Shown here one piece after another: positions 29,130 to 36,557 of a DNA stretch of 44,212 nt (position 1 is the first letter of the stretch; every line of letters starts with the position of its first letter). Position numbers and translations under genes: made by a program. The notes beneath the pieces were generated by a model. That model saw only the letters and a list, made by a program, of their open reading frames with translations, made no database searches and was not told the origin of the DNA. The stretch comes from Armatimonadota bacterium (GTDB lineage Bacteria > Armatimonadota > Zipacnadia > Zipacnadales > VGFC01), in assembly GCA_016869045.1 (NCBI GenBank), contig VGFC01000011.1, forward strand, positions 1 to 44,212, read 5' to 3'.

Positions 29130-30020
29130 TCACGCCGACGGGTCGGGCCCGTTGGCCAGGTGAGCGCGCAAGGCATCCCAGAAGCCGGGAGTCACGGGCC
29201 CTGGAGTCCGGAGCGAGGCCAGGCCGGCCTTCAGCGTCCGGTACGACTCCAGCTTCTCGGCGCAGACCTCGCAGGCGCGCAGGTGCCGCGCGACCTCGTC
29301 CCGGCGGCGGCGGATCAGCTGACCGTCCACATACGCCGAGAGCAGCAGCGCCAGTTGTGCGCAGGGCAGCCTGTCGGCCGCAGGCTCCAGATCCTCCGCC
29401 AACGGCACGTCGGCAGCCTGGTCGGCGCCGCTCGCGAACTCCGCGTTGGCTCTCACCATGCCGTCCGCGTGGATCAACGGGTGGACCTTTGCGAGTTCGG
29501 GGGCGAGCCAGGCCGGCAGCGTGTTCGTGTCATACAGGCACATGACGCCGACTTGGTCCAGCCCATCCAGCTCGTTGATGCGGTACTCGTACTCCAGCCA
29601 GCGGTCTGACCCGGGCACCCGCTGATGCAGCCACGTCACTTCCGCGGAGGCGCACAGGCCGCTGCAGCCGTCGCTCCGGGCCGAAACGGCCGCTCGCCCC
29701 CACGAGTCCAGCATCCGATCGGCGTCGAAACAGCCGCCCTGCAGGTACGTCTCTTCGGCCGTCAGGAACCGGAACTGCCCGCTCACAAGCGGATCGGTGA
29801 CGTCGCAGCCCCGACCGGCCAGGGCGTCGCGGAGCACTGGCAGCGTCGTGCGGTGCCCGATGAACAGGCACCGACATCCCTGCGCCAATGCCGCCCGGAA
29901 GATTGGCGCCAGGAGGTCGAACCGATCCTCCGCGTGGTCCGTGAAGCTGACCAAGTGTCTCCCCAGGCCCGCAGAGGGGCCGGGGCCCAACGGCTCAGTC
30001 GCTGAATCCATGGCTGCCAC
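29130..30020 (-). CDS. MEDS sensory domain fused to zinc-finger anti-sigma domain
   Basis: Residues 20-190 match the MEDS (DcmR-type) sensory domain: GLGRHLVSFTDHAEDRFDLLAPIFRAALAQGCRCLFIG, TAEETYLQGGCFDADRML and YEYRINELDGLDQVGVMCLYD. The C-terminal part is a zf-HC2 anti-sigma domain, LLLSAYVDGQLIRRRRDEVARHLRACEVC, with H246-x3-C250-x2-C253. No transmembrane helix is present, so the protein is cytoplasmic. It is encoded 26 bases after an ECF sigma gene and is very likely its regulator. The start is GTG 30020 with GGAGGG 11 bases upstream; ATG 30011 is an alternative. The MEDS signal is unknown; several extra cysteines allow redox sensing. Confidence 0.85.
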   Translation of the reverse strand: MAAMDSATEPLGPGPSAGLGRHLVSFTDHAEDRFDLLAPIFRAALAQGCRCLFIGHRTTLPVLRDALAGRGCDVTDPLVSGQFRFLTAEETYLQGGCFDADRMLDSWGRAAVSARSDGCSGLCASAEVTWLHQRVPGSDRWLEYEYRINELDGLDQVGVMCLYDTNTLPAWLAPELAKVHPLIHADGMVRANAEFASGADQAADVPLAEDLEPAADRLPCAQLALLLSAYVDGQLIRRRRDEVARHLRACEVCAEKLESYRTLKAGLASLRTPGPVTPGFWDALRAHLANGPDPSA

Positions 30021-30046: not shown

Positions 30047-30715
30047 CTAGGATGCGGAACCCGGGTCCTGCGTCAGGGCCTCGCGAAGCCGCTGGCGACC
30101 TCGGAAAATCCTGGACCGCACGGTGCCCAGCGGGATGCCCAGCATTCGAGCGATGTCCTTGTAGGGGAACTCCTCGACATCACACAGCAAGACGGGTACG
30201 CGGAACTCATCCGGCAGGTCATCCAACGCGCGCTTCAGGCGTTCATCCGGCAGGTCGGCGAGTGTGCTGCCCTCGGGCTGACTGTCCTCCGCAAGGGGGT
30301 CGAACCCGCCCGCCTCGCTCTCGCCGGGCACATCCTCCCAGGACACCGTCCGCGGCCGGCGCGCCGCCCGCCGCTGGGAGTTGATGTACGTGTTCACCAT
30401 GATGCGGAACACCCACGCCTTGAAGTTCGTACCGGGCTGGAAGCCCTTGAACCCGCGGAAGGCGCGCACGAGGGTGTCCTGGGTCAAGTCCTGAGCTTCC
30501 TCCCAGTTGCGGGTCATGCGCAGCGCACTGCCCATCAGGTCGGACAGATACTGAAGGGCAAGCGATTCGAAGGCCGCCCGGGAGGCCGGTACGCTAGTCA
30601 ACGCAGTCGGTCCCTGCTCTACTGTGTGGTAGGCGTGGTGGATACGGTTCCTGATCGCGGCGCAGAACCCTTCTTCGCCAGTGGGGGAAGTCCTTGGGTC
30701 GCCGGCGGAGGCCAT
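30047..30715 (-). CDS. ECF RNA polymerase sigma factor (partner of the MEDS anti-sigma)
   Basis: The 222-residue protein contains region 2 (LMGSALRMTRNWEEAQDLTQDTLVRAFRGFKGFQPGTNFKAWVFRIMVN) and region 4 (LLCDVEEFPYKDIARMLGIPLGTVRSRIFRGRQRLREAL), with a 30-residue acidic linker and no region 3. The unusually long 50-residue N-terminus has no known function. The gene lies 24 bases after a TPR membrane protein gene and 26 bases before the MEDS/zinc-finger gene, so all are probably co-transcribed. By sequence style it belongs near the RpoE/SigR-like ECF groups controlled by zinc-finger anti-sigma proteins. Confidence 0.92.
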   Translation of the reverse strand: MASAGDPRTSPTGEEGFCAAIRNRIHHAYHTVEQGPTALTSVPASRAAFESLALQYLSDLMGSALRMTRNWEEAQDLTQDTLVRAFRGFKGFQPGTNFKAWVFRIMVNTYINSQRRAARRPRTVSWEDVPGESEAGGFDPLAEDSQPEGSTLADLPDERLKRALDDLPDEFRVPVLLCDVEEFPYKDIARMLGIPLGTVRSRIFRGRQRLREALTQDPGSAS

Positions 30716-35130: not shown

Positions 35131-35898
35131 CTACCCGGAAGCCCGCTCCTCCGTTCCCTCGTGCAGACCCGAGAGGGCGACGGTCATCCTCGTCTCCAGC
35201 TCAAACTGCAACGCTTTGGCGGCTTCGTCGAACGCGCGGTCCAGTGTGCCGGTCTCCTCGCCGACGGTCGCCATCTGTACCGTGATGGGCGAGAACTCAG
35301 CGTCCGTCAGCCGAGCGTGTACCCGGGTGTCAGGTTCCAGCGGACGCCTCAGCACCTCGGCGCGCTCCGCATCCTGTGCGAAGGCCTCGGCGGCCACCTC
35401 CAACGCCATCGAGAGCGGCACGCCGCTTGCGAGCATCATGCTCGCCATGGCGCAGTACAGGTACTCCGCCGTGCGATGTCTGAAGTCCAGCACGGAGCCC
35501 TCGACGAGCGCGTAGGCCTCCTCCCTGGTGGCCACCAGGCCCAGCGCTTTCGCGAGGAGGACGTGGGTGTGGAAGCGGGCGTGCCATTCGAGGTCTCGCG
35601 CCAGCCACTCCGCCCACACGGCGAGCGTCTCGTCCACCACACCGCCGACCTCGCCGGCCCGCACGATCAGGATCGCCACCCCGCCGAAGACGTCGGGGTG
35701 CTGCTTCATGGCATCGGAGAGGGTCGCACCCGTCTCGATGCGGGCCATCAGATCGGCGGTGACCCCGTCCAGCGGCGAGGAGCTGACGGCTTTCAGGATG
35801 TCCAGGGCGCGCATGAGGCTCACGCCGGCCCCGATGAGCGTCGCGAACTTCCTGGCCCAGAGTGCGAGTGCCAACGGCGTGACTTGCTGTTCGGTCAT
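35131..35898 (-). CDS. Soluble GspF/T2SSF-like protein coupled to an ECF sigma factor
   Basis: The 255-residue protein has two T2SSF-like helical domains: residues 13-105 (WARKFATLIGAGVSLMRALDIL, GATLSDAMKQHPDVFG, VRAGEVGGVVDETLAVW) and 145-245 (MASMMLASGVPLSMALEVAAE, SPITVQMATVGEETGTLDRAFDEAAKAL). GspF/PilC proteins have membrane helices after each domain; here no hydrophobic stretch is long enough, so the protein is probably cytoplasmic. No other secretion or pilus gene is near. Its ATG overlaps the sigma gene stop by four bases (ATGA), so it is translationally coupled. An anti-sigma or sigma-modulating role is inferred, not known. Confidence 0.8.
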   Translation of the reverse strand: MTEQQVTPLALALWARKFATLIGAGVSLMRALDILKAVSSSPLDGVTADLMARIETGATLSDAMKQHPDVFGGVAILIVRAGEVGGVVDETLAVWAEWLARDLEWHARFHTHVLLAKALGLVATREEAYALVEGSVLDFRHRTAEYLYCAMASMMLASGVPLSMALEVAAEAFAQDAERAEVLRRPLEPDTRVHARLTDAEFSPITVQMATVGEETGTLDRAFDEAAKALQFELETRMTVALSGLHEGTEERASG

Positions 35899-36488
35899 GT
35901 CGGTCTCTCCCTCCCGTCGGCCTTCTGTCGGGCGACGGCCTCGCCCATTCGGTCCCGCAGGAGCGCTCGCAGGCGGCTCCGTGCTCGGTGTAGTCTGCCC
36001 ACGACGGTCGTCTCAGGCACGTCCAGGAAGTCGGCGATCTCACGATAGCTGCTGCCGTGAGCGTGCATGAGGAACGCGAGGCGGTTGTTCTCGGGAAGCC
36101 CCGCCAGCGCTGCGGCAACCTCGCGGCCCAACTGGCGCCGAGCGACCTCCTCGAACGTATCCGGGAGCGCCATCTGCTGAGCTGCCTCAAGGCCCAAGAG
36201 CACTGGCGCGGGTCGCCTGACCCATGAGCGGCAGCAGTTCAGCGCGATCTGACGCAACCAACGCGGGAAGGCGGCAGGCTCTCGCAGCTCCGACAGCGCT
36301 GCGTGGGCCTGGAGGAGCGCCTCCTGGGCCAGGTCCTCGGCTACGGCGAAGTCGCGGGTGCGGTCGAAGCACAGGGCGTGGACGCCCGGGCGATAGCGCC
36401 GCGCGAGTTCGTCGAAGGCTGCGCGGTCGCCGACGGAAGCGTCTCGCACGAGTTCGAGTAGGCCAGGCGGATCGCCCATCGCGCTCAC
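35895..36488 (-). CDS. ECF RNA polymerase sigma factor (partner of the GspF-like protein)
   Basis: The 197-residue protein has region 2 (AFDELARRYRPGVHALCFDRTRDFAVAEDLAQEALLQAHAALSELREPAAFPRWLRQIALNCC) and region 4 (LPENNRLAFLMHAHGSSYREIADFLDVPETTVVGRLHRARSRLRALL). There is no zinc-finger anti-sigma gene beside it; instead the GspF-like gene follows with a four-base overlap. The C-terminal 20 residues are basic and beyond the usual end. GTG 36488 or ATG 36479 may be the start. It is divergent in sequence from the ECF factor at 30047-30715, so they are not recent duplicates. Confidence 0.9.
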   Translation of the reverse strand: MSAMGDPPGLLELVRDASVGDRAAFDELARRYRPGVHALCFDRTRDFAVAEDLAQEALLQAHAALSELREPAAFPRWLRQIALNCCRSWVRRPAPVLLGLEAAQQMALPDTFEEVARRQLGREVAAALAGLPENNRLAFLMHAHGSSYREIADFLDVPETTVVGRLHRARSRLRALLRDRMGEAVARQKADGRERPT

Positions 36489-36557
36489 TGCCGAGAGATC
36501 AGGCTTGCTGAGATAGACGCGCGGACGAGGAGGTTCCTTACGCGTGACGGGCGGCGG

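Follow-up and report, generated by a model that had tools for sequence, protein, structure and literature searches.

Why should an ECF sigma factor gene share its last bases with a gene for a GspF-like protein that lacks membrane helices? Genes overlapping a sigma gene are most often anti-sigma genes, and known ECF sigma factors receive envelope, metal, oxidative and nutrient signals by way of anti-sigma factors or C-terminal domains. The locus examined here lies in a stretch of 44,212 nucleotides of an Armatimonadota genome (hereafter the window), and its features are collected in Table 1. The initial annotation had described a four-base overlap between an ECF sigma gene and the gene of a 255-residue protein with two T2SSF-type domains, and this is indeed what we found: the junction reads ATGA, and Pfam T2SSF matches the downstream product with 90 bits in two stretches. 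The upstream product matches Pfam Sigma70_r2 and r4_2 above cut-off and, having regions 2 and 4 only, is an ECF sigma factor. The pair is flanked by an alpha-L-arabinofuranosidase gene and by a tRNA-Asp/isocitrate-type dehydrogenase region. As the annotation had also stated, no pilus or secretion genes were found alongside the T2SSF gene across the 44-kb window, where motif scans for the GspE P-loop and for pseudopilins returned nothing; a scan for a sigma-70-type promoter or a terminator was equally empty. The window carries a second ECF sigma gene followed by the gene of a soluble MEDS sensor/zf-HC2 protein (29130-30020 and 30047-30715, minus strand), the latter likely an anti-sigma factor with a sensory domain.

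Table 1. Features of the sigma–T2SSF locus, in positions of the window.
Feature	Position	Strand	Remarks
Probable autoregulatory ECF promoter, GTAAGGAACC-N12-CGTCTA	36514..36541	-	Inside the 69-nt gap ahead of the sigma gene
ECF sigma factor, 197 aa	35895..36488	-	GTG start (alternative ATG 36479); Pfam sigma regions 2 and 4; T2SSF-paired clade
ATGA, 4 nt shared by sigma stop and T2SSF start	35895..35898	-	
Soluble two-domain T2SSF (GspF-like) protein, 255 aa	35131..35898	-	Without membrane helices
Cyto1-like domain	35545..35877	-	Residues 8-118; RAGEVGG motif retained
Cyto2-like domain	35137..35493	-	Residues 136-254; GVP and GEE.G motifs retained

The T2SSF protein shares with the GspF/PilC platform proteins the Cyto1 and Cyto2 domains, the fold and the GE.GG and GVP motifs, but it differs from them in lacking the N-domain, the three transmembrane segments and the Tyr-Pro/Glu-Pro channel residues, in standing outside any pilus operon, and in that the soluble T2SSFs form a clade of their own, which split as one group from canonical GspF with a support of 100/99. 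Its highest 19-residue Kyte-Doolittle mean is 1.81, and the values range from 1.40 to 2.05 in 13 soluble homologues versus 2.46 to 3.29 in 44 canonical GspF sequences, most of which have three or more strong hydrophobic segments. Overlooked membrane helices are ruled out by this comparison, and the claim that the protein is without the hydrophobic helices of GspF/PilC therefore stands. The AlphaFold2 model is all helical, with a pLDDT of 92.6, and Foldseek aligned it with solved Cyto1 domains of GspF/PilC (5nbg, 2whn and 3c1q) at an rmsd of 1.0-2.5 Å. Residues G82, E83, G85, G86, G159, V160 and P161 are invariant across all eight soluble rows aligned. The channel Tyr-Pro (TMS1) and Glu-Pro (TMS3) occur in 100% of the 44 canonical rows, whereas neither was seen in any of the eight soluble rows. 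No anti-sigma or zf-HC2 domain was matched in the protein by Pfam or NCBIfam.

When a soluble-T2SSF profile was run against 291 Armatimonadota genomes, 13 of them gave near full-length matches of 166-377 bits, in clean separation from canonical GspF, which reached at most 135 bits with one domain covered. Together with genome G140 and locus L088 this makes 15 soluble loci, patchily distributed over about 14 of the 291 genomes. A sigma gene lies directly upstream at no fewer than 10 of the 15 (G000, which holds the window, G001, G014, G055, G073, G116, G140, G259, G260 and G261, one of these ten genomes being a single contig), in eight families and with sigma factors of one clade. The search for homologous pairs and for conservation of their overlap that the annotation had proposed thus returned at least ten pairs, and in seven of these the T2SSF start overlaps the sigma gene by 4-23 nt. 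It lies 1 nt behind the sigma gene in G014 and slightly less than 30 nt behind it in G055, while in G116 both are fused in frame into one protein of 458 amino acids. Within the fusion an internal ATG and a ribosome-binding-like sequence persist, and the stop codon may thus have been lost recently; the single-chain model of the fusion, made from unpaired alignment rows, had an unstructured linker and no reliable interface. Among the ten sigma genes, three from draft genomes are disrupted: that of G055 by a single stop codon at a position where a relative has Trp, and those of G259 and G140 by frameshifts. No sigma factor matching the sigma profile (E 1e-8) was present within 4 kb of canonical GspF at any of 72 loci. 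Outside the Armatimonadota, no T2SSF protein without transmembrane segments was found among the 80 best loci of a contig scan, in which more distant cases may be missed.

The sigma factors tell a similar story. The T2SSF-paired sigmas, that of the window included, form one clade (support 98/98) whose grouping broadly matches the T2SSF tree. The partial sigma of G140 fell within this clade, and a soluble T2SSF gene was then found beside it, which amounts to a blind prediction. In the 291 genomes the eight best matches to a sigma profile, seven of which had been used to build it, were the paired sigmas (229-307 bits), and all others scored 181 bits or less. The nearest other sigma factors of the phylum have, in many cases, long soluble C-terminal domains. 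Many Armatimonadota ECF sigmas (L151-L164) are 360-710 amino acids long with such domains, among which we noted a bifunctional nuclease by Pfam and, by eye, ankyrin-like, radical-SAM-like and other domains. Chance neighbourhood, which we had considered as an explanation, is excluded by the recurrence in at least ten genomes, by the absence of sigma genes at the 72 canonical loci, by the ranking in the sigma profile and by the G140 case. The sigma–T2SSF pairing is accordingly well supported by comparative sequence evidence.

Upstream of the sigma gene, a motif GTAAGNTT-N13/14-CGTCTA was found with at most two mismatches at six of nine loci, and at each of these none of 400 shuffles did so. The window copy has two mismatches to the paired-sigma motif, and 0 of 400 shuffles were as good. 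In the 7.87-Mb genome it was the only site found with at most one mismatch to its own core, and genome searches at a stringency of at most two mismatches returned little or nothing beyond the promoter of the pair itself. As the motif searches thus returned mainly the pair's own promoter, the sigma–T2SSF pair is probably self-activated. A pilus regulon controlled through this promoter was considered and rejected, since the motif hardly occurred outside the operon of the pair in either strict or relaxed searches; it was also absent from the 10 kb surrounding the main pilB/pilC of the window genome. The link to pili in the window organism is indirect, as the pair has no pilus genes around it and its promoter did not occur a second time in the genome at the stringency used.

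Ten pairs in eight families, overlapping starts, a fusion, congruent clades and a promoter conserved upstream of the sigma gene argue that the T2SSF protein is a cytoplasmic partner dedicated to the sigma factor, a conclusion that we consider well supported at the level of sequence. The proposal of the initial annotation that the T2SSF fold serves as a cytoplasmic sigma regulator or adaptor is supported in part by this. However, homologous loci lacking a sigma gene, which the annotation had named as evidence to the contrary, do exist: five of the 15 soluble homologues are of this kind, three of them directly behind a PilB ATPase gene (G011, G016 and G020) and two orphans, so that T2SSF does not need a paired sigma everywhere. 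Only the soluble homologues of the f6 genomes have pilus or secretion genes around them, and they lie behind PilB; in L053, L054 and L055 a PilB ATPase gene, the soluble T2SSF gene and a TPR/zinc-ribbon gene stand in a row. Within the soluble part of the T2SSF tree, sigma-linked members occur on either side, and with canonical GspF as outgroup the simplest ancestor of the soluble forms would have been sigma-linked, the PilB-linked and orphan forms being derived.

Parts of the filament motor recur in other ECF systems of the phylum. In G259 (L061 1408-2511), the soluble T2SSF carries a C-terminal domain resembling the N2 domain of GspE/PilB (about 29% identity, E 4e-7), and in G053 (L166 1480-2892) a 471-aa protein joins an ECF sigma to a bifunctional nuclease domain and further to a GspE N2 domain, the latter matching a PilB (41%, E 7e-12). 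G268 (L185 3441-4109) has a zf-HC2 and N2 protein without an ATPase domain. A stand-alone N2-like protein of 129 amino acids, also without an ATPase domain, was seen in G063 (L188 3850-4239). About 14 Armatimonadota genomes among the matches listed have a zf-HC2-like N-terminus fused to a GspE-type ATPase, the zf-HC2 being confirmed by Pfam in five of them. In the first ten such loci examined, an ECF sigma gene lies directly upstream in nine (one of them frameshifted), and the tenth is at a contig end. The zf-HC2 fusions to these GspE/PilB-type ATPases are about 440-460 amino acids long, and their genes often overlap the ECF sigma gene by 4 nt (L191 1501-2865 in G014, L190, L193, L195, L196, L198, L199, L204, L205 and others); in G290 (L206 5398-11939), the two genes point away from pilM, pilN and a secretin gene. 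Like the T2SSF pairs, the zf-HC2-GspE operons place a part of the type IV filament motor in the protein encoded behind an ECF gene, but here it is the ATPase side, joined to a zinc-finger anti-sigma domain, and the sigma belongs to another clade. Both were seen together in only two genomes (G014 and G073), which makes two parallel recruitments look likelier than a single system. The zf-HC2-GspE fusions behind ECF sigmas are possibly the stronger finding of the two. In a published model, each PulF cytoplasmic domain binds a PulE N2 domain (PMC10790770). Given the N2, T2SSF and GspE parts found in ECF systems, both sides of this predicted contact thus recur beside, or fused to, ECF regulators.

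The reading that we favor, with a probability of about 0.5, is a self-contained ECF unit in which the sigma is self-driven, the T2SSF protein is its dedicated cytoplasmic regulator and the input is competition from the N2 domain of a motor ATPase. The ECF sigma would drive its own operon from the conserved promoter, and the co-translated T2SSF would hold it, most likely as a holding or anti-sigma-like factor; we guess the sign of this control from what genes that overlap a sigma gene usually do. The regulator would be built from Cyto1 and Cyto2, the domains with which GspF/PilC grips its ATPase, and as the most likely input the sigma would compete with the N2 domain of a GspE/PilB-type motor ATPase; the N2 domains of a filament ATPase would release, or reinforce, the hold of T2SSF on the sigma. 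The signal sensed through T2SSF would then be the state of the motor, and sigma activity would tell a free type IV filament motor from an assembled or a working one. Binding and direct control of the sigma by T2SSF is what we infer from the genomic evidence, and binding of N2 is suggested by homology together with the published model (PMC10790770). The Cyto motifs are retained and N2 is fused to the protein in G259, while the Cyto–N2 interface itself is known as a model only.

The same observations could be read with the motor as target: T2SSF would bind PilB/GspE as a soluble brake or adaptor, and the sigma would set only the timing of its production. The three homologues directly behind a PilB-type ATPase gene without a sigma, the retained Cyto motifs and a promoter motif found only at its own operon speak for this account. 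However, sigma-linked forms occur on either side within the soluble part of the tree, and a sigma–T2SSF fusion protein is hard to explain if the motor is the sole target; we thus consider it rather unlikely. That the pair is a decayed GspF remnant or an accidental operon without function seems very improbable in view of the intact frame, the confident all-helical model, the conserved motifs, the congruent clades and the conserved promoter, even though the patchy distribution and the three broken sigma genes of the draft genomes would fit it.

T2SSF might instead be a positive partner that the sigma requires for activity, in the manner of the ECF42 C-terminal domain, and not an anti-sigma factor. 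Separate genes that overlap a sigma gene mostly encode anti-sigma factors, and related ECF operons of the phylum contain zinc-finger anti-sigma domains, both of which make this alternative improbable. The G116 fusion, like the closest other sigmas in the phylum, many of which have long soluble C-terminal domains, does resemble the ECFs with regulatory C-terminal extensions (ECF41 with SnoaL, ECF42 with TPR) treated in the sections consulted of a review (PMC8999054). The T2SSF partner differs from these extensions in that an overlapping gene of its own normally encodes it, and those sections do not name T2SSF as a C-terminal extension of ECF sigmas.

Soluble regulators of ECF sigmas are already known as a kind, and the consulted part of the same review includes putative Asp23 partners of ECF286/292 (PMC8999054). 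RpoE-ChrR (ECF11), SigH-RshA and ECF286/292 with the putative Asp23 partners share with our pair a sigma gene adjoining the gene of a soluble cytoplasmic protein, but the window partner is derived from GspF and helical, without a zinc anti-sigma or Asp23 domain. The probable self-activating promoter of the window pair is a further point of similarity to these systems. The annotation had regarded ECF sigma plus soluble T2SSF as an undescribed class, and we likewise found no description of it in the literature searched, nor of GspE-ATPase anti-sigma fusions, although the ECF reclassification scheme may already list such groups.

Our results suggest that secretion-machine parts have been wired into gene control in the Armatimonadota, a group of uncultured bacteria. 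More tentatively, and with somewhat less than even confidence, we propose an ECF family of this phylum whose regulators are dismantled motor parts (GspF Cyto, GspE N2 and zf-HC2-GspE), with transcription set by motor state or by a GspE-type ATPase that uses ATP to release the sigma. The contact between GspF and GspE is poorly understood. If our reading of the T2SSF pair is true, this contact would be separated from the membrane and purifiable as a soluble two-protein system. The zf-HC2-GspE and N2 fusions that exist in parallel open the idea to tests from either side of the contact. Use of the motor-gripping part of GspF/PilC as a regulator would then add a new input to those of ECF sigma factors, namely the state of a pilus or secretion motor.
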